A program made the position numbers and the translations under genes. From Candidatus Thioglobus sp. (GTDB taxonomy: Bacteria; Pseudomonadota; Gammaproteobacteria; PS1; Pseudothioglobaceae), in the NCBI GenBank assembly GCA_029936515.1, contig JAPYSK010000015.1:1-32167 (forward strand): DNA of 32,167 bases, in the 5' to 3' direction. The notes beneath the pieces are model-generated. The model was not told where the DNA came from, made no database searches, and saw nothing but the letters and a program-made list of their open reading frames with translations. Positions 23,194-32,167 of the stretch are shown here, piece after piece (the first letter of the stretch is position 1; every line of letters begins with the position of its first letter).

Positions 23194-23354
23194 TTTGTGA
23201 AGAAATCTATGGCTGATTAAAAACCTTGAATCCTTTTATGGTTTAAACAAAACTGTTTATTGTTCAATATGCCCCATAAATATTTATAGTTCTAAAAAAA
23301 ATTGCTTGATTTTGGAGGGTGGCAATATATGACTTTTGCATTTAAACAATATCT

Positions 23355-24767
23355 CTAAAAGCCCAATTTTTCCTCAACAAAACGATTACGAAAAACACCA
23401 TTTGGATCGTATCTAGAACAGACATCACGAAATCTGTCCATCTTTGGATAAAGTTGATTTAATTGTTCACTGTTTTGTGGGAACCACTTACCCCAATGTA
23501 TTCGCGCCTGAAACAGCTCAAACATACTGTTTGCTAAAAAAGTTGCCAATGCATGAAATTCATCTCTAGGCTCCTGGTAAGTAATAAAGCTAATTGCGTA
23601 CCAATCTTCAGATGTGCCAGATGCCATAGAGATTAATGTGTCATCCGGCATGATCCTACGAAAGCAGATTGGGTAGTGATGAGTATAGCGCCCTTTAATT
23701 GAAGATAGTGAATCTAACAGTTGTGCTTTTTGTAGCCTTTCAATGGTTAATTCTGAGAGCTGATGATTGCTATTATCTGCGTACTGCAAAATATCCTTAA
23801 CAAAACTAGCTGCCTCAATTACGCGAGATCGAACGACAAAAGCCTCAAGCTCTAAATGCCGAAACAATTCATGCTTCATCACAAGTGCCCGGTCACTTCT
23901 ATCAGTCACTACCCAATTTTGAAATACAAGAGAGGGCACAATGGAACGAAAAAAGATGTGCACTAATCGCCTACTTCGCAGAATTGATACAAGCAACTTC
24001 ATCACTAAATGCATACCAAGATCGATAACAAGAAACCAATATATTCGATAAATAGCAGCAAAACCTCGACGACTTAGTTCTGGGGAAACAAATCTCTCTT
24101 GGACAAAAAAGTACCAAGATTGTGGCATCAAAAAAAACTGCTGTAAAGGTGCCTGCTTCTCCAATACTAGGACCTCTTCGATTGTTTTACAAAACGTCGA
24201 TTTCTCTTGAACAAAATATTGCGGAATACAAGGCAGTGTCACTTCAACAACAACCCCAAGACATCCAAGAGAACACCTTCCCGCCTGAAGCGACTCGCCT
24301 TCAGTAATATTTACAATCTGAGCAGATTTACCAGTCTCATCAAAACAAGCTAATTGGAGTGACTCGATATAATGTGAGAGACTATGTTTGCCGGAACCAT
24401 GAGTACCTGTAGCAGTAGCACCAGCAATCGTTTGTTCAGCAATTAAACCAACTGAGGGTATCGTTAATCCTTTTCTGCTTAGTACAGCTAACAACTGTTT
24501 AACTTTACAACCAGCGCCTACAGTAACGGAAGTCTCGTGATTCTTTTCTTGGACCCTAATATAGTCAAAATGACTCATATCAATTAGTACGTCTTCAGTT
24601 TCAATCAGACCACTCCATGAATGCTTTGAAGCAACAACTCGAATTTTGCCACTGTTATGTTTTTGAAGAATATCAATCAACTCAACTCTGTTGTTTGGGG
24701 AGTAAATATGTTTTGGTTTAAAGCGCAAATTGCGACCAAAGTTTTCTACGATTTTAGCTTTCTCCAT
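23355..24767 (-). CDS. FAD-linked oxidase, sugar-1,4-lactone oxidase (ALO) type
   Basis: 470 aa. An N-terminal VAO/PCMH FAD-binding domain has VVASKHSWSGL, VGAGCKVKQLLAVLSRKGLT and the flavin-contact TIAGATATGTHGSGKHS (about residues 112-128). A C-terminal ALO domain ends in IHWGKWFP, YPKMDRFRDVCSRYDPNGVF and FRNRFVEEKLG. Relatives oxidise aldonolactones or alditols (L-gulonolactone, D-arabinonolactone, xylitol). The middle contains a hydrophobic patch (IYWFLVIDLGMHLVMKLLVSIL) suggesting membrane association. Its promoter is probably the one inside repeat copy R1, about 35 bases upstream of the ATG. Confidence 0.85.
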   Translation of the reverse strand: MEKAKIVENFGRNLRFKPKHIYSPNNRVELIDILQKHNSGKIRVVASKHSWSGLIETEDVLIDMSHFDYIRVQEKNHETSVTVGAGCKVKQLLAVLSRKGLTIPSVGLIAEQTIAGATATGTHGSGKHSLSHYIESLQLACFDETGKSAQIVNITEGESLQAGRCSLGCLGVVVEVTLPCIPQYFVQEKSTFCKTIEEVLVLEKQAPLQQFFLMPQSWYFFVQERFVSPELSRRGFAAIYRIYWFLVIDLGMHLVMKLLVSILRSRRLVHIFFRSIVPSLVFQNWVVTDRSDRALVMKHELFRHLELEAFVVRSRVIEAASFVKDILQYADNSNHQLSELTIERLQKAQLLDSLSSIKGRYTHHYPICFRRIMPDDTLISMASGTSEDWYAISFITYQEPRDEFHALATFLANSMFELFQARIHWGKWFPQNSEQLNQLYPKMDRFRDVCSRYDPNGVFRNRFVEEKLGF

Positions 24768-24773
24768 TTGAGT

Positions 24774-24870
24774 CTTATAATTTCAGTATCAATTTAAACC
24801 TAGTATAAATCTAGTAAGGATGAAAGTCCAAATTTCGTTTGATTTGTGAGTTAGGAAATATATTTAGCTA
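24774..24870 (-). repeat. Dispersed intergenic repeat copy R1
   Basis: Fills the gap between the acetyltransferase stop and the FAD oxidase start. Over 77 bases it differs from R8 at 7 positions by my count. It contains the core AAAGTCCAAATTTCGTTTG on the plus strand. The minus strand carries the promoter described at 24802-24831. Confidence 0.88.
24802..24831 (-). promoter_or_regulatory. Repeat-borne promoter for the FAD oxidase (R1)
   Basis: Minus strand: TTGGAC (24831-24826), 18 bases, TATACT (24807-24802). The start codon is 35 bases beyond the -10, giving a leader of roughly 28 bases. Confidence 0.6.
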
Positions 24871-24874
24871 TTTA

Positions 24875-25366
24875 CTAAGCTGGAGTATATTTCTCCAGTA
24901 CTATAGAATTTTCAATTTGTTTTGATGAAATTTTCCAATACTTGTTAAGTAATTGATTCGTTTGTTTTTTTGTATGGGCAACAAAACCAAATTTCTTATA
25001 AAACTGAATTGCCCAGATGGCATCTCGCCATGTACCAACAAGTATGACTGCACTTTTATTAATTTCAAATAAATGTTGCAACAATGATTTTCCAATGCCT
25101 ATACCTTGATAATTGGTTAATGTATAAGCATGCCTAATTAGAGTAACGTCTTGTAACTCCTGAATACCCATTACGCCAACTAATTTATTATCCTTTTTAT
25201 AACCAAATATACGAACACCGTTTTCAAATTCATTAATCAGTTCTTTTTCCAACATGTACGGTTCATGCCAACAATCATCTGGAATAACCCCCCTATACTT
25301 TAACGAAGCGTCATTAATTACAAAGAGAATCTTAGAAAGGTCTTTTTTTGTATATTCTATTATCAT
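24875..25366 (-). CDS. GNAT family N-acetyltransferase
   Basis: 163 aa single GNAT domain. Core motifs are GVMGIQELQDVTLIRHAYTL (strand beta 4), the acetyl-CoA pyrophosphate loop YQGIGIGKSLLQHLFE (Q-x-x-G-x-G, about residues 86-101) and the FYKKFGFV C-terminal motif. The N-terminus (INDASLKYRGVIPDDCWHEPYM) recalls YjaB/ArsN2-like members but the substrate is unknown. It sits between repeat copies R1 and R2, 5 bases after the former. Confidence 0.86.
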   Translation of the reverse strand: MIIEYTKKDLSKILFVINDASLKYRGVIPDDCWHEPYMLEKELINEFENGVRIFGYKKDNKLVGVMGIQELQDVTLIRHAYTLTNYQGIGIGKSLLQHLFEINKSAVILVGTWRDAIWAIQFYKKFGFVAHTKKQTNQLLNKYWKISSKQIENSIVLEKYTPA

Positions 25367-25378
25367 GATCTATTAGAA

Positions 25379-25434
25379 TCTACTATAAACTTATAACGGA
25401 TAAAAGTCCAAATTTCAATTGATGTGTGAGGGGG
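25379..25434 (-). repeat. Dispersed intergenic repeat copy R2
   Basis: Lies between the two GNAT genes, almost filling the gap. Core TAAAAGTCCAAATTTC followed by a variant AATTGATGTGTGAGGGGG. The spacer between -35 and -10 has little similarity to R1, yet its length is the same. Confidence 0.82.
25382..25411 (-). promoter_or_regulatory. Repeat-borne promoter for the GNAT gene (R2)
   Basis: Minus strand: TTGGAC (25411-25406), 18 bases, TATAGT (25387-25382). Only 16 bases separate the -10 from the ATG at 25366, so the transcript would have a leader of about 9 bases or none, consistent with the missing Shine-Dalgarno. Confidence 0.55.
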
Positions 25435-25439
25435 CTTTA

Positions 25440-25940
25440 TTAAAGGGTTAGTAAAAGGTCAACGCAAGACATTGTTTTTTTACGTGAAAGAAAATATTCT
25501 TCACACTCGCCTACTTCTTTAAATCCAAGTTTTCTTAGAACATTTGCTGAGGTGTTATTTCCTTTAATATAGCATGCCGTAATTTGTTTAAAGCTGGTCT
25601 CTTTTTTGACATATTTAATTAACCCCATTACCGCTTCAGTAGCATAGCCATTGCCCCAGTATTCCCTTCCTACCCAATAGCCTAAATCTAATTTATTATC
25701 TTCTTCCAGGTTTACGCCAACACCGCCTATCAAAGAATCATTCATAAATATACTAAATGTTAAATCATCATGGTTAATATTATTTAACCACTCTTCAGCT
25801 TTTTGTTCTGTATAAGGATAAGGAACATCTGATAGCCATTTTGCTACTTGCCAATCTCCGATTTGAGAGGCAATTAATTTCTTATTTATTGTTTTTACTG
25901 GTTTCTTTAAGACCAGTCTTTTTGTCTTAATTTGATTCAT
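25440..25940 (-). CDS. GNAT family N-acetyltransferase, RimJ/RimL-like
   Basis: 166 aa. Begins MNQIKTKRLVLKKP, typical of the RimJ/RimL group. LGYWVGREYWGNGYATEAV (about residues 87-105) is the acetyl-CoA loop and NTSANVLRKLGFKEVGE the C-terminal motif. ATG 25940 taken; an in-frame TTG at 25952 adds MIFL. It follows the agmatinase gene after a 45-base gap with no repeat in between, so the two may share a transcript. Substrate (ribosomal protein or small amine) unknown. Confidence 0.86.
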   Translation of the reverse strand: MNQIKTKRLVLKKPVKTINKKLIASQIGDWQVAKWLSDVPYPYTEQKAEEWLNNINHDDLTFSIFMNDSLIGGVGVNLEEDNKLDLGYWVGREYWGNGYATEAVMGLIKYVKKETSFKQITACYIKGNNTSANVLRKLGFKEVGECEEYFLSRKKTMSCVDLLLTL

Positions 25941-25985
25941 AAGAAATATCAACTCAATAAACCCTAATTATTAGCTAGAGTTAAT

Positions 25986-26954
25986 TTAAGTTTTTTGCTT
26001 TCTGGAATAGGCAAACAAGTTTGTAATTTCAAAAACCGTAGTTGCCGCAGACAATGAGGTTAATTCTGCATGATCATAAGCTGGAGAAACTTCTACAACA
26101 TCTGCAGAAATAATGTTTAACCCTGCCAATCCTCTTAAAACTCCTACAAGCTCTCGTGTTGTCATTCCTGCAATCTCAGGTGTTCCTGTACCGGGTGCAT
26201 GAGCAGGATCCAGAACATCAATATCAATCGATAAATACATTGGATTGTCTCCCACACGATCTCTAATGCGTTTAACAATATGGTCTATACCTTCGCTTTG
26301 GAATTCATCACAATGTATAACTTTAAAGCCTAATTCCTTATCCTTTTTTAGATCGTCTCTAGAATACAAGGGTCCTCGAATACCAACATGCATAGAGGCG
26401 CCCTCTAAGAAAAGTTTTTCCTCAGCCGCTCTTCGGAATGGTGTGCCGTGAGTATAAGGAGCTCCGTAATAGGTGTCCCAAGTATCTAAATGAGCATCAA
26501 AGTGAACGAGTGCGACTTGGCCATGATGATGATTGACTGCTCTGAGCAAAGGCAAGGCAATTGTATGATCTCCACCCAAGCTAATTATCCTATCTACTTT
26601 TCCCAACAGGTCTGTTGCCGCCTTTTGAATTTCCACAACTGCTTTTTCAATATTGTAAGGATTACAAGCTATATCCCCAGCATCGGCCACTTGTTGTTCA
26701 GCAAAAGGTTCGGTGTCATATGCCGGATGATACTGGGTACGGAGATGCCTTGAAGCTTGACGGATGGCCTGTGGTCCAAATCTAGCTCCAGGACGATAAC
26801 TAGTCCCTGCATCAAATGGAATTCCTACAATAGCCACATCACAATGCGAAACATCTCGGAGTTCAGGCAGCCTAGCAAAGGTGGAAGGGCCAGCAAAACG
26901 TGGAACTACAGTGCCACTGATTGGTTGAATAGGTGTGCTGTCTGAATTACTCAT
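25986..26954 (-). CDS. Agmatinase / guanidinobutyrase-type ureohydrolase
   Basis: 322 aa with all binuclear manganese ligands: SLGGDHTIALP (about 124), VHFDAHLDTWD (about 150) and SIDIDVLDPAHAPGTGTPE (about 240-258), the last canonical for agmatinases. The N-terminal part (VVPRFAGPSTFARLP, GIPFDAGTSYRPGARFGPQAIR) matches the agmatinase/GbuA/GpuA group. It would release urea from agmatine (to putrescine) or a guanidino acid. A perfect Shine-Dalgarno (AAGGAGGGG) precedes the ATG. Second ureohydrolase in this window and more typical than that at 16773-17771. Confidence 0.9.
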   Translation of the reverse strand: MSNSDSTPIQPISGTVVPRFAGPSTFARLPELRDVSHCDVAIVGIPFDAGTSYRPGARFGPQAIRQASRHLRTQYHPAYDTEPFAEQQVADAGDIACNPYNIEKAVVEIQKAATDLLGKVDRIISLGGDHTIALPLLRAVNHHHGQVALVHFDAHLDTWDTYYGAPYTHGTPFRRAAEEKLFLEGASMHVGIRGPLYSRDDLKKDKELGFKVIHCDEFQSEGIDHIVKRIRDRVGDNPMYLSIDIDVLDPAHAPGTGTPEIAGMTTRELVGVLRGLAGLNIISADVVEVSPAYDHAELTSLSAATTVFEITNLFAYSRKQKT

Positions 26955-26986
26955 TTCCCCTCCTTAGGTATAAATAGTTTTTTCAT

Positions 26987-27128
26987 ACTATAATTATATT
27001 TCAATTTAAACTTAGTAAAAATCTAAATTCTGTTTGATATGTGAGGGAGAGTTAATTAATGTATAGCCAAGAGCAATGAGCCTCCCCCTCATACCTTCAA
27101 AGTGTGAATATATATGCGAGGGATAGTA
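26987..27128 (-). repeat. Dispersed intergenic repeat copy R3 (long form)
   Basis: Long copy between the GGCT-like stop and the agmatinase start. The core is degraded (TCTAAATTCTGTTTGATATG replaces the usual core). On the right it continues with TAGCCAAGAG and TACCTTCAAAGTGTGAATAT, the latter nearly identical to R8. The -35 hexamer is altered to TTAGAT and the 18-base spacing is lost. A TATAAT at 26998-26993 is present but not at the family spacing, so the agmatinase promoter here is uncertain. Confidence 0.8.
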
Positions 27129-27149
27129 GATTTTTCATGTTTTTACTAA

Positions 27150-27590
27150 TTAATTTTCTGGCACAAAGGGTCTAATCCATTGCTCGACATAATCGTCAGG
27201 CAGATTGGCACTCTTAATACCTGCGTTAATTCTTTCAATATACTCAGCTTGAGGTTTACCCATGTCATTATCGGAAGCAACATAAACCAAGCAATCAAAA
27301 AGTCCTTCTTCCGTTTGAATGCTCAAAATATACTTATCATACATGCCTTCAGACACACATTCGTAGTTGTCTAAATACTCAATATCCTGTTCACTTAAGG
27401 TGAACACTTCCCCCAAAACAAAGGCATTCGGAGAAGGCTTAACGCTCGCATAACCCCCACTATTAATCAACCAAGCATAACCCGACAACCTTCCCGAAAT
27501 CAGATAATCTGACTCTGGACAACGAAGAGCCATTTGCTCCTTTGATAAGTTTGATCCATAGGCGAAGTAATAGCTTTTTAGATTAGTCAT
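27150..27590 (-). CDS. Gamma-glutamylcyclotransferase-like (AIG2/GGCT fold) protein
   Basis: 146 aa. Hallmark YFAYGSNLSKEQM at residues 8-20 (the substrate-binding YGSN turn), then GRLSGYAWLINSGGYASVKPS and YLDNYECVSEGMYDKYIL with the catalytic-type glutamate. Relatives form 5-oxoproline from gamma-glutamyl amino acids or act on gamma-glutamylamines, so glutathione or amine turnover is possible. The ATG directly abuts repeat fragment R4 with no Shine-Dalgarno, and the repeat promoter is missing there. Confidence 0.86.
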   Translation of the reverse strand: MTNLKSYYFAYGSNLSKEQMALRCPESDYLISGRLSGYAWLINSGGYASVKPSPNAFVLGEVFTLSEQDIEYLDNYECVSEGMYDKYILSIQTEEGLFDCLVYVASDNDMGKPQAEYIERINAGIKSANLPDDYVEQWIRPFVPEN

Positions 27591-27619
27591 AATTTTCGTT
27601 TGATGTGTAGGGGTGAGTT
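27590..27619 (-). repeat. Dispersed intergenic repeat copy R4 (fragment)
   Basis: Only the upstream block survives (TTTTCGTTTGATGTGTAGG on the plus strand), ending exactly at the GGCT-like start codon. The TTGGAC and -10 half is missing. It lies in the only divergent gap of this region. Confidence 0.7.
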
Positions 27620-27668
27620 TATTTTGAACTATAATTGACTTTCTTTAACAATATCACTGGAAATAATA

Positions 27669-28001
27669 ATGTCAATAAATTTCAAAACTTATAGCGACTT
27701 ATGGATAAAGCCAGTCAACGATAAAGAGACTGAAGGTTTGTCAGAAGTATTATCTGATGACTTTGTCTGGTCGAATGATAGATTTAATTGGGTAGTAAAT
27801 AAACAAGACACAATCGATTGGTGTAGAGATACAAATCTGATAGGTGTTGATTTTAGCGCTTATTATGAAAACGATGAGGTTTTAGTAGGAATACATACTG
27901 CTAGAGAGCCGAACGTTGCTGAATCAAGTGTAATGTTTATAGCTAAAATTAAAGATGATAAGATTGTCTCACACCACTATATTCGCGAATTTGATAGATA
28001 A
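27669..28001 (+). CDS. NTF2/SnoaL-like small protein
   Basis: 110 aa, the only plus-strand gene in the last 7.4 kb. The pattern is of a SnoaL/NTF2-like cone: an N-terminal helix with TYSDLWIKPVNDKET, SEVLSDDFVWSNDRF, then alternating strands ESSVMFIAKIKDDKIVSHHYIREF. No catalytic set is evident, so it may bind a small ligand. GGAAATAA precedes the ATG. Its TAA lies within repeat copy R5. Confidence 0.68.
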   Translation: MSINFKTYSDLWIKPVNDKETEGLSEVLSDDFVWSNDRFNWVVNKQDTIDWCRDTNLIGVDFSAYYENDEVLVGIHTAREPNVAESSVMFIAKIKDDKIVSHHYIREFDR

Positions 28002-28050
28002 AAGTCCAAATTTCATTTGATGTATGAGGGAGGGGGTATATGTATAAACT
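27994..28050 (-). repeat. Dispersed intergenic repeat copy R5
   Basis: At the convergent junction between the NTF2-like gene and aspA. The GATAAAAGTCC start of the core supplies the NTF2-like stop codon (27999-28001), and the repeat's right end runs into the aspA stop. The TTGGAC hexamer is intact but no TATAAT-like hexamer stands 17-18 bases away, as expected where no gene starts. Confidence 0.83.
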
Positions 28051-29448
28051 TTAGCGGATATTGGGCTTTGTAAGGTTATCCACATGCAAAACTTCGTTCA
28101 CCTGGTCTTCTGTCATTAAGCCTTCTTGAATAATAATCTCACGAACAGTAATCTCCTCTTTAAGTGCTCTTTTGGCAATTCGAGCTGATTCTTTATAGCC
28201 TAAATGAGGAGTAAAGAATGTCGCTATACCAGGACTTTGTTCAACATATTTTGCACATACTTCAACATTCGCAGTAATTCCATCTACACATTTTGTTCTT
28301 AGCATTACCATCGCATTAGTCATATAGCGTAATGAACGTAGTATGTTTACCGCCAAAACAGGCTCAAAAGCATTGAGCTGCATTTGTCCTGCTTCAGCGG
28401 CTAAAGTGATTACCAAATCATTTCCAATTACTTGAAAAGCGGTTTGATTAACAGCTTCAGGAATAACAGGATTAACTTTCCCAGGCATAATTGAAGATCC
28501 AGCTTGAACAGCAGGGAGATTTATCTCATTAAAACCGGCAATTGGGCCTGATGATGATAATCTTAAGTCATTAGATATTTTTGAAAGCTTTATAGCCACT
28601 CGTTTAAGAACAGAAGAGAACGACACAAAAGCACTTGTGTCAGATGTTGCAGCAATTGGATTTGGAGCTAGCACCAAAGGTAGTCCAGATAAATCTGCCA
28701 AGGCCTCTACCGCTATTTTTGGATAATCTAGATGACTATTAATACCTGTTCCAATAGCTGTTGCACCTAAATTGACCTCCAAAAATAATTGTGACATTTC
28801 TTCCAGCCTTTTAATATCATCTAATAAAGTATTACCGAAAGCAGTAAATTCCTGACCAAGACTCATTGGTACAGCGTCTTGGAGTTGTGTTCGCCCCATT
28901 TTAATGACACCGGCAAATTCGACACCTTTGGCATGAAAAGAATCAGACAGAGCTTTAATTGCCTCCAATAAAGGGTCATACTCTTTTAAAAATCCAACCA
29001 ATAAGGCAGTCGGATAGGTGTCATTCGTTGACTGTGACATGTTGACATGACCGAGTGGTGAGATAGCATCATAATCTCCTTTTTCTTTTCCGATGATTTC
29101 AAGTGCTACATTGGCAATTACTTCATTAGCATTCATATTAGTTGAAGTGCCGGCGCCTCCCTGGATTATCTCAACTACAAACTGATCATGGAACTCACCG
29201 TTGATAATTCTCTCACAAGCAGCGACTATTGGATGATAGATATCATCATCTAATAGGCCCAGTTTATTATTTGCTCGAGCACACGCAAGCTTAACCATGG
29301 CATAAGCAATAATAATATTTGGGTAGACTGAAATAGCAACATCAGCAATCGGGAAATTATCAACTGCGCGCTTAGTATGAATACCGTAATAAGCATCACT
29401 AGGTATTTTCATTTCACCTAAAAAATCAGATTCTATTCTGTATTTCAC
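28051..29448 (-). CDS. aspA: Aspartate ammonia-lyase
   Basis: 465 aa, standard length for aspartase. It deaminates L-aspartate to fumarate and ammonia. The superfamily signature GSSIMPGKVNPVIPE (about residues 317-331) with its catalytic-loop serine is intact. Also present are the GAGTSTNMNANEV and NMSQSTNDTYPTA motifs that bind the substrate carboxylates. Class II fumarase is the main alternative, but the N-terminus (YRIESDFLGEMKIPSDAYYGIHTKRA) is aspartase-like. A weak repeat promoter (R6) lies 90 bases upstream. Confidence 0.93.
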   Translation of the reverse strand: MKYRIESDFLGEMKIPSDAYYGIHTKRAVDNFPIADVAISVYPNIIIAYAMVKLACARANNKLGLLDDDIYHPIVAACERIINGEFHDQFVVEIIQGGAGTSTNMNANEVIANVALEIIGKEKGDYDAISPLGHVNMSQSTNDTYPTALLVGFLKEYDPLLEAIKALSDSFHAKGVEFAGVIKMGRTQLQDAVPMSLGQEFTAFGNTLLDDIKRLEEMSQLFLEVNLGATAIGTGINSHLDYPKIAVEALADLSGLPLVLAPNPIAATSDTSAFVSFSSVLKRVAIKLSKISNDLRLSSSGPIAGFNEINLPAVQAGSSIMPGKVNPVIPEAVNQTAFQVIGNDLVITLAAEAGQMQLNAFEPVLAVNILRSLRYMTNAMVMLRTKCVDGITANVEVCAKYVEQSPGIATFFTPHLGYKESARIAKRALKEEITVREIIIQEGLMTEDQVNEVLHVDNLTKPNIR

Positions 29449-29537
29449 AATCTCAAATAATTAATAAATGTACTATCAAGCAATAATAGCTATTTTTTTT
29501 GAGAATCATACGCTTATCAATTCTTAATTGAGAAATT

Positions 29538-29567
29538 ATTATTTAATTTGAACCTAGTAAAATCCAA
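29538..29567 (-). promoter_or_regulatory. Repeat-borne promoter for aspA (R6, weak match)
   Basis: Minus strand: TTGGAT (29567-29562), 18 bases, AATAAT (29543-29538). Each hexamer has one base changed relative to R1/R8 or consensus. The ATG is 90 bases downstream. Confidence 0.4.
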
Positions 29568-29630
29568 ATTTCGTTTGAAGTTTAAGATAGGGTGTATTAA
29601 TACTTAGCCGAGTACAAGAGGTTTTCCTCC
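29538..29630 (-). repeat. Dispersed intergenic repeat copy R6
   Basis: Between fdxA and aspA. It contains AACCTAGTAAAATCCAAATT, then CGTTTGAAG, then TTAATACTTAGCCGAG shared with R8, and ends at the fdxA stop. Compared with R8 it has lost about 14 bases between AACCTAGT and the core, so the -10 is a different TA-rich hexamer at the same spacing. Confidence 0.78.
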
Positions 29631-29981
29631 TTAGTCACCTTTGCCGGGTTTTTCAGAAAATAAATGCATCTTGCCATCTGGAAAATTAATAGGGTGATAT
29701 TTTTCGTGCTCTGGATCTGGGTCTCCGTTTTCAGTAATGTTTGGCCACATCATCTCAGTACTATATTTTCTATTGAACTCTACCCACTTATCGCCAGCTG
29801 GATCGGTATCAGGCAATATAGCTTCAACTGGACATTCTGGCACACATACATCACAATCAATACATTCTTCTGGGTTAATAACCAGCATATTTTCGCCTTC
29901 ATAGAAACAATCTACTGGGCATACTTCAACACAATCTAAGTGCTTACATTTGATACAATTATCGTTTACTATATAGGCCAT
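29631..29981 (-). CDS. fdxA: Seven-iron ferredoxin FdxA
   Basis: 116 aa ferredoxin of the Azotobacter FdI type. Cysteines match the known ligands one residue offset: C9, C17 and C50 for the [3Fe-4S] cluster, C21, C40, C43 and C46 for [4Fe-4S], with C12 and C25 free. The C-terminal tail after residue 55 ([18 protein letters not shown]) is the usual lid of this family. Low-potential electron carrier; partner unknown. Single gene between repeats R6 and R7. Confidence 0.95.
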
Positions 29982-30028
29982 TTAACTTTATTCAATAAAA
30001 GAAATTAAAAATATGATTCCGTGTTATT

Positions 30029-30098
30029 TTGAACTAAGTATATAACTATAAAAAATAAAAGTCCAAATTTCGTTTAATGTGTGAGGGAGACTGATCCT
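30029..30098 (-). repeat. Dispersed intergenic repeat copy R7
   Basis: Between the methyltransferase and fdxA. The core is intact apart from one base (TTTAATGTG for TTTGATGTG). The left arm, including the spacer between the hexamers, is unlike R1 and R8, but the -35/-10 distance is kept. Confidence 0.85.
30037..30066 (-). promoter_or_regulatory. Repeat-borne promoter for fdxA (R7)
   Basis: Minus strand: TTGGAC (30066-30061), 18 bases of AT-rich spacer, TATACT (30042-30037). The fdxA ATG is 56 bases beyond the -10. Confidence 0.6.
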
Positions 30099-30124
30099 CT
30101 ACTTCTAGTATCAAAAGCTCTAAT

Positions 30125-30754
30125 TTATTTTTTTCTAAATACCGTGATAATTACTTTGTCACTGCCATGATCTTTGTCTGGATTATTGCCATAGGCATAT
30201 ATTTCATGAAAATTAGGCTTGGTTATACTCCTTTCAATCTCTAAAATTTTTTTATCAAATCCAGCTTTTTTATATAACTTATAATGAATTGTAAAAACAA
30301 AAAGACCGCCAGATCTGGTGACTCTTAAAAGTTCATCTAATACATCTGGCCCGACATGACCATGAGTAAAAGTCCCTGCACTTACAATTGCTCCATAATG
30401 ATTGTCATTTATCAATAATCTTTTGGTAAGGTCTGCCTCAATTATTTTTGAATAGCAATTTTTTAATCTAGCAATATTTAGCATTTCAGGAGAAATATCA
30501 ATAGCATCCAGTTCTCTTGAACTTACATTTAAACACTGTCCAATGAGACCTGTTCCTGCACCAACATCTAGAATTGGAGTGTCTTTATTATTGGAATATT
30601 TATCAAAATATTTAGCTATTTCTAAAGGAGAGCGATAGTCATTTTGTTTAGCAAAATCGCTATCGTATGTAGAAGCCCAACTTCTATATAGATTTATAGA
30701 GTCTTCAGAAGTCTTTATTGAATATGCATCTTTTAAACCTTTTTTTTCTGACAT
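30125..30754 (-). CDS. Class I SAM-dependent methyltransferase
   Basis: 209 aa. Motif I is PILDVGAGTGLIGQCL (about residues 60-75) followed by the acidic ELDAIDISPEMLNIAR loop, then AIVSAGTFTHGHVGPDVLDELLRVTRSGGLFVFTIH as post-motifs II-III. The N-terminal part (LYRSWASTYDSDFAKQNDY) matches the small-molecule Methyltransf_11/25 group. Acceptor unknown. Downstream of repeat R8, whose promoter stands 35 bases from the ATG as in R1. Confidence 0.86.
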   Translation of the reverse strand: MSEKKGLKDAYSIKTSEDSINLYRSWASTYDSDFAKQNDYRSPLEIAKYFDKYSNNKDTPILDVGAGTGLIGQCLNVSSRELDAIDISPEMLNIARLKNCYSKIIEADLTKRLLINDNHYGAIVSAGTFTHGHVGPDVLDELLRVTRSGGLFVFTIHYKLYKKAGFDKKILEIERSITKPNFHEIYAYGNNPDKDHGSDKVIITVFRKK

Positions 30755-30760
30755 GTAATT

Positions 30761-30916
30761 CTTATAATTTCAGTATCAATCTAAACCTAGTATAAATCTA
30801 GTGAGATAAAAAGTCCAAATTTCGTTTGATGTGTGAGGGAGGGAATACTAATACATAGCCGAGTGAAATAGGGGGTCCCCTGTACCTTGAAAGTGTGAAT
30901 AAATATGCTAAGGAGG
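30761..30916 (-). repeat. Dispersed intergenic repeat copy R8 (long, best preserved)
   Basis: About 156 bases filling the gap between djlA and the methyltransferase. Parts from left to right on the plus strand: left arm CTTATAATTTCAGTATCAAT, AACCTAGTATAAATCTAG, core, GTGTGAGGGAGGG, ACTAATACATAGCCGAG, the self-complementary AGGGGGTCCCCT, and TACCTTGAAAGTGTGAATAA. Best model for the full-length element. Confidence 0.88.
30789..30818 (-). promoter_or_regulatory. Repeat-borne promoter for the methyltransferase (R8)
   Basis: Minus strand: TTGGAC (30818-30813), 18 bases, TATACT (30794-30789). Same geometry relative to the start codon as in R1 (35 bases). Confidence 0.6.
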
Positions 30917-30928
30917 ATTACACCTTAA

Positions 30929-31708
30929 TTAGCGCATGCCACGGTGCTTTTTAATGAGCTCATAAGCGCTAATGATTTCTTGGGTTTTTTCATTGGCTAT
31001 TTTTTTCATCTCCTCTGGCAAGCCTTTGGAAACTAATTTATCTGGATGATGCTGAGCTAACAATCGGCGATAGGCTCGTTTGAGCTCTTTATCAGTTAGA
31101 CTTTTATCCGCACCCAATATCACGTAGGCATCGTTAACTGTTAGTTGATTAGTATTGTTGCTAGTAGCGGAAAATTGCTGAATCAGACTCTCTAGCTCAT
31201 GAATAGGAAAGTGTAGTTTTTGCGCGATATATTTAAGTGCATCATGTTCTTTATCGTCAAACACGCCATCAGCATAAGTGGCTTGGATTTGAATCTCTAA
31301 AAACATGCGTATTAAGTGTGTACGCCTATGACTTTCAGTACGGAACTGTTCAAGCACTTCGTCTAGGTTGAAATCTTTGTGTTTGCCTTGGTTAAACAGG
31401 TCTTTTGCAACTTTTTGCATATCGTCTGATAATTGCATATGTTGCATAACTTGCTGTGCTAAGAGAATTTCAGACTTTGATACCTTGCCATCGACTTTGG
31501 CAATATAGCCCATAACTGAAAATACACTACTAAAAAATGCTGCTTGAACGCGCTGCTGATCGCCCGGACGATAATCTTTAGCGAATCCGCCAAAATTAGA
31601 CTTACGTTTAGAAAAATTACCCGCGAATGCCACACCAAGCATCGCACCTAGCGGCCCACCAATCATATAACCTAGTGCCCCACCTAAAACTGTTGTCCAC
31701 CAACTCAT
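30929..31708 (-). CDS. djlA: Co-chaperone DjlA (TerB plus J domain)
   Basis: 259 aa. An N-terminal glycine-rich membrane anchor (TVLGGALGYMIGGPLGAMLGVAFAG) is followed by a TerB-like helical domain about 50-165 (AKVDGKVSKSEI and YADGVFDDKEHD acidic motifs). A C-terminal J domain about 190-259 has the HPD tripeptide in LLAQHHPDKLVSKG. It anchors DnaK activity at the inner membrane. Length and domain order fit gammaproteobacterial DjlA. Upstream lies a spacer of about 190 bases with the inverted-repeat element at 31801-31862. Confidence 0.93.
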   Translation of the reverse strand: MSWWTTVLGGALGYMIGGPLGAMLGVAFAGNFSKRKSNFGGFAKDYRPGDQQRVQAAFFSSVFSVMGYIAKVDGKVSKSEILLAQQVMQHMQLSDDMQKVAKDLFNQGKHKDFNLDEVLEQFRTESHRRTHLIRMFLEIQIQATYADGVFDDKEHDALKYIAQKLHFPIHELESLIQQFSATSNNTNQLTVNDAYVILGADKSLTDKELKRAYRRLLAQHHPDKLVSKGLPEEMKKIANEKTQEIISAYELIKKHRGMR

Positions 31709-31800
31709 AATTATTACTCTATTTTTTGTTAAAAAACCAAGCTATATTTTGTACCAAACTTCGATAATTGCAAGCAAAAAGACAGAAAATATTTATTATC

Positions 31801-31862
31801 GATACACATCCTGTCAGGAACAATAGCTCCCCCGCAGGGGATTGATATTAAAGATGTGTATC
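31801..31862. repeat. Inverted-repeat element, possible structured RNA
   Basis: Perfect 10-base arms GATACACATC (31801-31810) and GATGTGTATC (31853-31862) enclose 42 bases. On the minus strand these hold a GC-rich hairpin (CCCCTGCGGGG with flanking CAAT/ATTG) and a small TCC-TGACA-GGA hairpin. Together they could form a three-way junction about 90 bases upstream of djlA. No T-tract follows, so it is not a standard terminator. No riboswitch class recognised. Confidence 0.45.
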
Positions 31863-31907
31863 TTGAGTTGAGAAGAAGAATAGTAAAAGTATAAGAAGTT
31901 TTTTCAT
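31848..31907 (-). CDS. 19-codon ORF with signal-peptide-like sequence
   Basis: MKKLLILLLFFFSTQDTHL, starting with ATGA overlap on the stop of the ORF upstream and ending inside the right arm of the inverted repeat. The hydrophobic run looks like the first part of a signal peptide cut short. It may be the 5' remnant of a lipoprotein or exported-protein gene (in another frame LLFLTGC, a lipobox-like motif, follows), or a short leader peptide. Weak case for a functional product. Confidence 0.3.
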   Translation of the reverse strand: MKKLLILLLFFFSTQDTHL

Positions 31908-32122
31908 ATACTTCTCCATTTTTCTAGTGCGATATAATTTTTAAAGTACCAATCTTTAAATTCAGGATTGGCTTTAAATTCTCCTGTCATTTGCTTTGAT
32001 GTAAATTGGTCTGACCTAAAACGCTGTGCTAACAATCTATAATCTTTTAATGTTTTCTCTTCGTCAACAAGCTTGTCAAATTGTACTTGTTCTTTTGCCT
32101 TCCAAGCTACACTAATTATAAG
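31904..32122 (-). pseudogene. 5'-truncated ORF of unknown family
   Basis: 73 open codons on the minus strand ending in TGA 31906-31904, with protein-like composition (AWKAKEQVQFDKLVDEEKT, QMTGEFKANPEFKDWYF, NYIALEKW). No ATG lies near its beginning, and an in-frame stop at 32125-32123 separates it from repeat R9. The TATAAT of R9 falls within its first codons, so transcription would start inside the reading frame. Reads as the C-terminal remnant of a gene whose 5' end was replaced by the repeat; an internal TTG or ATG start giving a 30-50 aa protein is the alternative. Confidence 0.45.
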
Positions 32123-32143
32123 TCACCTTGAGCCAAAGTCCAA
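32115..32143 (-). promoter_or_regulatory. Repeat-borne promoter in R9
   Basis: Minus strand: TTGGAC (32143-32138), 17 bases, TATAAT (32120-32115). The best -10 in the family with the optimal spacing. It would drive the truncated ORF, the 19-codon ORF and possibly djlA. Confidence 0.62.
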
Positions 32144-32167
32144 ATTTCGTTTGATGTGTGAGGGATG
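32134..32167 (-). repeat. Dispersed intergenic repeat copy R9 (cut by window end)
   Basis: The core and the following GATGTGTGAGGGA block are identical to R8 over 31 bases; sequence left of the core is unrelated to R8. The element probably continues beyond the window. Confidence 0.83.

Follow-up and report, generated by a model that had tools for sequence, protein, structure and literature searches.

The window, a stretch of 32,167 nucleotides that forms the entire contig C17 of the Candidatus Thioglobus sp. genome G000, carries nine copies of a short repeat between 24.8 and 32.2 kb, all in the plus orientation, in a region where most genes lie on the minus strand (Table 1). The repeat core is directional and ~32 bp long with the consensus AAAGTCCAAATTTCGTTTGATGTGTGAGGGAG, and a profile of 139 copies from related genomes contains a single strongly conserved stretch from about -4 to +28. 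The fifth copy, R5, scores 52.4 bits against this profile; 128 kb of first-order Markov sequence gave no match of 5 bits or more. A pattern search of the organism's own genome returned six copies, every one on this contig, and the reversed control returned none. A known RNA was rejected as a reading of the repeat, as an Rfam covariance-model search of positions 23300-32167 gave no match at E ≤ 1. R5 lies at a convergent junction, as the first-pass annotation had seen, between aspA and a plus-strand gene that the annotation named NTF2-like and that has no match in Pfam or NCBIfam. Genes throughout are mechanical ORF calls, and the genomes compared are one per species, many of them fragmentary; neither the shuffles nor the p-values take relatedness into account.

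Table 1. Coordinates of genes, repeat cores and shared modules in the window
Feature	Position	Strand	Remarks
R1 core	24823..24854	+	upstream of minus-strand FAD/ALO-domain oxidase gene; -10 TATACT at 18
R2 core	25403..25434	+	upstream of GNAT gene; -10 TATAGT at 18
Agmatinase + GNAT module	25465..26998		G017 (L067) 88.9%; to 26987, G021 (L063) 87.9%
R3 core	27018..27049	+	upstream of agmatinase gene; full right-hand module; best -10 4/6
R4 core (copy 27588)	27584..27615	+	left half degenerate, 7.3 bits; overlaps GGCT/AIG2-like gene start
NTF2-like ORF, 110 aa	27669..28001	+	own TAA abuts core; name from the first-pass annotation
aspA module	27994..29564		G017, 96.9% DNA identity; cores at both ends, different neighbours
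R5 bare core	28001..28032	+	without promoter module or right-hand module; between two native gene ends
Aspartate ammonia-lyase (aspA)	28051..29448	-	NF008909 over cut-off
R6 core	29559..29590	+	upstream of aspA; -10 AATAAT at 18
fdxA cassette, core to core	29559..30089		G017 contig C32 (L079), 90.8%
R7 core	30058..30089	+	upstream of fdxA; -10 TATACT at 18
Methyltransferase module	30084..30770		G016 (L017), 93.0%
R8 core	30810..30841	+	63.1 bits; upstream of methyltransferase gene; -10 TATACT at 18
R8 full right-hand module	30842..30916	+	~75 nt, GC-rich centre
djlA module	30917..31829		G017 (L079) 97.4%; L052 94.7% over 30917-31799
R9 core, contig end (copy 32139)	32135..32166	+	perfect TATAAT at 17 nt

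The endings of the two genes at the junction had been attributed to the repeat, with the TAA of the NTF2-like gene assigned to R5. The NTF2-like protein ends in ...REFDR; the last base of the TAA that follows is also the first base of the core, a one-base overlap with a stop that is the gene's own. All seven homologues with 43-77% identity (G019, G011, G018, G003, G042, G013 and G016) have the same terminal residue; a good core follows the stop in G019 (29.6 bits), decayed core likeness in G042 (-5 bits) and G003 (-8 bits) and doubtfully in G011 (-23), and no core in G018, G013 and G016 (-17, -54 and -43 bits, respectively). Two more distant matches, in G008 and G041 (26-28% identity), leave the C-terminus unaligned and are uninformative on the gene end. 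The AspA C-terminus, NLT[KR]PNI[RQH], stops at the same residue in nine of the ten homologues compared, all from other genomes; the tenth, from G002, is truncated, aligned just to residue 446 and different at its end. A core follows the AspA stop in G017 (57.3 bits) and G041 (22.8 bits), and none follows it in seven genomes (G016, G023, G006, G009, G010, G015 and G021). The aspA stop does sit where other copies read TAGCCGAG, as had been noted; the stop and next 12 nt (TAAAGTTTATACATA) are the same in G016, which has no core there, so the match is one of position and not of borrowed sequence. R5 ends before the native aspA 3′ sequence. Since homologues keep the same ends with or without a core, both stops are native and R5 is a bare core, and the repeat as the source of either gene's ending is wrong; the outcome is the one that the first-pass annotation had itself named as refuting its reading. 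An insertion shaping the 3′ end of the NTF2-like gene finds no support, while recombination probably did shape the junction, in another form than proposed, because unrelated gene modules meet at the repeat. Junctions of this type are common elsewhere: in a set of 167 copies, from which just those identical over 70 nt were dropped, 43 follow the end of a plus-strand gene and 32 of these are convergent.

The same set divides into 105 copies with a minus-strand gene start within 250 nt, the 43 that follow a plus-strand gene, 10 with neither and 9 that are cut. A -10 hexamer with at least five of six matches at a spacer of 16-19 from TTGGAC is present in 59 of the 105 and in 8 of the 43 (Fisher p = 2.5e-5, uncorrected for relatedness), compared with a rate of 7.9% for control windows placed in these flanks. 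Overall, a spacer of 17 is the most frequent, and 18 prevails in the window. A sigma-70-type promoter, with -35 and -10 elements at 16-19 nt before a gene start, is therefore predicted for over half of the copies beside such starts and not for R5, which keeps TTGGAC but whose best -10 at spacers 16-19 matches 3/6, in agreement with the first-pass annotation. These data indicate that the core supplies the -35 element (TTGGAC) where a gene starts beside it, and the promoter reading given earlier to the other copies gains support from the enrichment. R5 had further been described as the only copy lacking a downstream gene start; neither R5 nor R9 has a listed minus-strand start within 250 nt, and as R9 has a perfect TATAAT and a short ORF, the description holds only if that ORF is a gene. 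The ORF, of at most 72 aa, lies downstream of this TATAAT, core and ORF both falling within 31907-32166. The core scores 49.7 in copies of the promoter type and 48.8 in those of the R5 type (p = 0.76, uncorrected for relatedness), which suggests that the promoter role is true for many copies and is not what conserves the core.

Some copies are followed by a longer right-hand module, which exceeds the threshold in full form in 35 of the 167 copies and falls below it in 132, the right flank being cut in 3 of the 167. With respect to a terminator reading of this module, no protein gene ends before it at the coaE-side locus, where a tRNA-Met gene on the right strand ends ~200 bp before. At L121 6698-7092, the coaE-side array begins ~320 bp past this tRNA-Met gene, with a full right-hand module between.

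Within the genus, the core is present at up to three mismatches in 25 of 29 genomes, compared with 2 of 54 other genomes of the order. One genus genome that is 99% complete, G001, contains no core at this setting. Exact matches occur in 51 named stretches, mostly from Candidatus Thioglobus, Pseudothioglobus, SUP05 and gammaproteobacterial genomes; a few carry the labels Hellea, Rhodospirillales or PS1 clade, perhaps through mis-binning. Contigs C39 of G017 and C65 of G016 likewise have a core no more than 60 nt from one of their ends.

Modules of the window that are shared at 87-97% stand beside different neighbours in relatives. A set of 63 loci was drawn from 21 genomes and contains 187 cores, overlapping or duplicate loci such as L113 and L054 having been left out; in it, all 123 neighbouring core pairs within 6 kb are co-oriented, with a median spacing of 1333 bp. 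Homology between genomes (alignments of at least 300 bp and 80% identity) ends within the 60-bp core zone from -15 to +45 in 105 of 259 cases, compared with an expected 13.4 ± 4.5 and a maximum of 29 in 300 circular shifts, which keep core spacing within a locus and do not keep gene positions; the remaining 154 ends lie away from cores. Where the partner also has a core, left-side homology reaches the far right edge, with 30 of 38 ends at +23..+29, and right-side homology reaches the far left edge, with 19 of 35 ends at -5..-3 (ends at -15..+45 of cores of at least 25 bits, one HSP being countable in both directions). With a core-free partner, the 26 ends in the core zone are dispersed between -12 and +44. 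In copy pairs that share one flank only, the excess identity stops at the core, and the left and right flanks appear to be exchanged independently, linkage being lost inside ~+2..+22 (211 left-sharing and 55 right-sharing pairs). Taken together, the alignments indicate that the repeat is a real and widespread cassette boundary.

Across 34 gap pairs between filled and empty sites, the extra DNA has a core at both ends in 7, at one end in 7 and at neither in 20, and the last group shows core-free variation in the same regions as well. Five intervals account for the seven pairs with cores at both ends. A 5.2-kb interval of four units in G017 corresponds to a single decayed core in G021 and G014; the junction is ~20 nt off in the filled and empty sites of G017 and G041; the second alignments are short (187 and 176 bp) for G040 against G004 and G018; the interval is bounded by cores at both ends in G041 against G014; and G042 has one extra gene relative to G003. 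At the coaE-side locus, the flanks that enclose eight cores over 7 kb in G040 enclose one in G013. This single core of G013 has the conserved flank on one side and, on the other, a gene that matches G040's peptidyl-arginine deiminase-type gene (94.7% DNA identity); a second, weaker core lies beyond that gene.

Individual cases disagree on where within the core the crossover would lie, with G042/G003 placing it left of ~+14 and G041/G014 at the right end, and stricter left and right pairs gave no narrower interval than ~+2..+22. Cores reduced to their right half occur in five places (L024 10606, L148 1121, L145 3539, L181 5461 and L016 17718) and a left half alone in at least one (L155 4591); two places counted under both halves reflect one-base deletions, and several more are partial. 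In G021, DNA from upstream of aspA joins a right half-core at TTTGA. The half-cores and the linkage are only suggestive of the crossover location. An ORF of ~610 aa appears to end inside the half-core at L016 17718. No excision circle or live rearrangement was seen among these genomes, many of them fragmentary. A segment of at least 4.6 kb in contig C57 of G014 is present in two inverted copies with 100% identity (L112 1-4598 and L113 7112-11709), which may be an assembly artefact.

The cargo between cores is highly varied. One ORF of at least 60 aa is found in 78 of 123 core-to-core intervals and none in 7, and 124 of 184 ORFs run against the core. The 99 array proteins scanned, out of 156, are mutually unrelated, their joint alignment having served for scanning only, and touch 146 Pfam families, the commonest of which, among the 25 of 146 listed, occurs in five members. 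The families include acetyltransferases, methyltransferases, FG-GAP and MORN repeats, Rieske oxygenases and regulators, and this scatter is not like that of a single regulon. A defence cargo was considered and rejected, since among 25 of the 75 PADLOC families listed, 22 match one member each; mad2, mad3 and mad8 match two or three each. Acetyltransferases and ABC transporters are among the commonest PHROGs matches, with one match to a tail protein.

Searches for IntI, tyrosine and serine recombinases and Y1 transposases in the 29 genus genomes found no dedicated recombinase common to those bearing cores. The IntI model TIGR02249 has matches in all 29, not all of them complete, and none over the cut-off. 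Nearly all genomes have two Xer-like genes, and several core-bearing genomes, including G000, have just two tyrosine recombinase matches. The remaining tyrosine recombinases have a patchy distribution; four were inspected, and these adjoin tRNA-Arg, tmRNA or a tRNA-His/Arg/Pro cluster. Tyrosine recombinases beyond the two Xer-like ones were set aside as a shared enzyme. Serine recombinases (4/29 genomes) and a Y1 transposase (1/29) are too rare for this role. One of the tyrosine recombinase genes, of ~340 aa, lies directly between a core and the tRNA-His/Arg/Pro cluster in G014 (L171 11295-12773), and eight more genomes of the genus contain relatives of ~340-407 aa, of which one is interrupted by an internal stop. 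Integrases of ~400-420 aa lie beside tmRNA in G042 (L152) and G018 (L151) and beside tRNA-Arg in G006 (L156), each with a single core ~3-4 kb off. A phage or plasmid carrier was rejected because phage and plasmid collections gave no core match; viral contigs gave no exact 24-mer match, and no relatives of the NTF2-like protein were found in them.

The explanation put forward here is that gene-cassette arrays of this genus probably have their exchange boundaries at the core, R5 being one copy among many. Each unit would extend between successive cores, usually holding one gene, and cassettes would be gained, lost and reordered through recombination inside the core, for which a putative site-specific recombinase appears likelier than RecA alone. 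The core would double as part of a promoter, contributing the -35 element (TTGGAC) and upstream sequence, while over half of the cassettes with a start beside the core appear to bring a -10; with the two at the right spacing, an incoming gene could be expressed wherever it is inserted. R5 would join an opposite-running NTF2-like cassette, with its own stop, to the aspA cassette, which would explain why a -10 is missing from R5 and why neither gene takes its stop from it. It is quite possible, as a more tentative proposal, that this exchange is unrelated to integrons and acts on a directional site of ~32 bp; a putative new recombinase would work near the centre of the site (TTTGA), and the site would also form the upstream half of the promoter of each cassette, a single sequence then providing for both exchange and expression. 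Counting against the cassette-exchange reading are the lack of a dedicated recombinase in these searches, the homology ends off cores, the core-free gaps, the scatter of ends with core-free partners, the disagreement among crossover cases, the decayed core in G021 and G014 and the ~20-nt offset between G017 and G041.

It is also possible that the same boundaries arose through ordinary homologous recombination, with the co-oriented repeats providing short stretches of homology in flexible genomic islands, without a dedicated enzyme. This alternative shares the cassette reading, so that its odds overlap with those of the main explanation. It accords with the failure to find a universal dedicated recombinase and with the homology added by promoter and right-hand modules, which extend the 32 bp to ~170 bp with the core, and the parts of PMC12421898 and PMC4033161 drawn on here propose this mechanism for the islands of SAR11 and of further marine bacteria. 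With cores in both partners, however, the limits of homology cluster at the edges of the 32-bp core itself, whereas longer modules should spread them, and at least one of the five right-half-only cores is joined to non-core sequence at TTTGA. Like flexible islands, the arrays vary in gene content while occupying conserved places in the chromosome, some of which, in these genomes, are near tRNA or tmRNA genes; they differ in that a short conserved directional repeat marks the unit boundaries. In the tycheposons of Prochlorococcus, which are likewise marine genomic islands by tRNA genes, a tyrosine recombinase integrates a whole element at the tRNA, whereas the units here are mostly single genes between cores. 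A repeat that is only a promoter or operator, its regulon sites copied along with genes, is unlikely: the predicted -35 and -10 pairs, most often 17 nt apart and 18 nt in most window copies, fit over half of the copies beside minus-strand starts, but the 43 copies at the ends of plus-strand genes are equally conserved and mostly without a -10, the 99 scanned proteins span 146 Pfam families, and module boundaries fall at cores. The account in which an inserted repeat supplied both stops and shaped the 3′ end of the NTF2-like gene is scarcely credible; the TAA abuts the repeat and an ORF appears to end in the L016 half-core, yet the NTF2-like homologues without a core, like AspA in its seven core-free genomes, end at the same residue.

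The array works like an integron, yet fails two of its defining features. Integron arrays likewise have co-oriented short sites (here 123 of 123 pairs), mostly one gene per unit (78 of 123 intervals), highly varied cargo, an order that differs between relatives and, in at least one array here, adjacency to conserved chromosomal genes. In the sections of PMC8352920 and PMC1382264 relied on, attC has a conserved single-strand fold from paired R and L boxes and integron cassettes are mostly promoterless, respectively. The present arrays have no IntI over the cut-off in the 29 genomes and no conserved folded site, their boundary being the conserved 32-bp core, and roughly two thirds of the ORFs are oriented against the core, many showing a promoter-like combination of core -35 and cassette -10 (the 59 of 105 noted above, as a sequence match only). 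The RNAalifold consensus of the 35 full copies has an energy of 0.0, nine hand-picked copies gave a partial hairpin at -4.85, and for six full copies folded singly on the core strand the energies are -14.7 to -29.5, without a shuffled control. The missing IntI and conserved fold led to rejection of an integron as such, and with most copies below the right-hand-module threshold, a true integron or an integrase-less remnant in the form of an attC cluster has only a very slight chance of being correct, the single-copy folds and integron-like layout notwithstanding. Xer-dependent modules of the pdif kind, known from Acinetobacter plasmids and XerCD, are very unlikely too. A pdif site has 28 bp with XerC and XerD arms. 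Both systems place short sites between gene modules that are shuffled, and two Xer-like genes exist in nearly all genomes here; pdif sites alternate in orientation in the portion of PMC13141974 consulted, while none of the 123 neighbouring core pairs is oppositely oriented. A likeness of 9/11, by eye, to XerC arms printed in that portion was the reason for testing the genus's own dif, to which the best 11-mer of the core matches 8/11 at the XerC arm and 11/22 over both arms. This likeness is not beyond chance (P = 0.12-0.22 against shuffled cores and random window pieces), and a pdif/Xer origin was rejected. The plasmid collection gave no match to the core. No description of such arrays appears in the titles or abstract beginnings of the best-ranked open-access papers, which is weak evidence of absence, and a word search of the available text of the announcements of two SUP05-clade genomes (PMC4616169, PMC6424205) gave no mention of the repeat.

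The preferred reading, that the core marks exchange boundaries of cassette arrays, bears on how this group of marine bacteria varies its gene content. The ocean harbours SUP05-type bacteria in abundance. Should their variable genes be housed in arrays that have a defined exchange site, the genes that uncultured relatives have gained or lost would become readable directly from sequence, and the exchange site would be a handle for finding the enzyme. If the site is both the crossover point and half of a promoter, it would represent a solution to cassette expression other than the outside promoter of the integron. Whole genes appear to be swapped in and out of arrays at a 32-letter site across a group of ocean bacteria.
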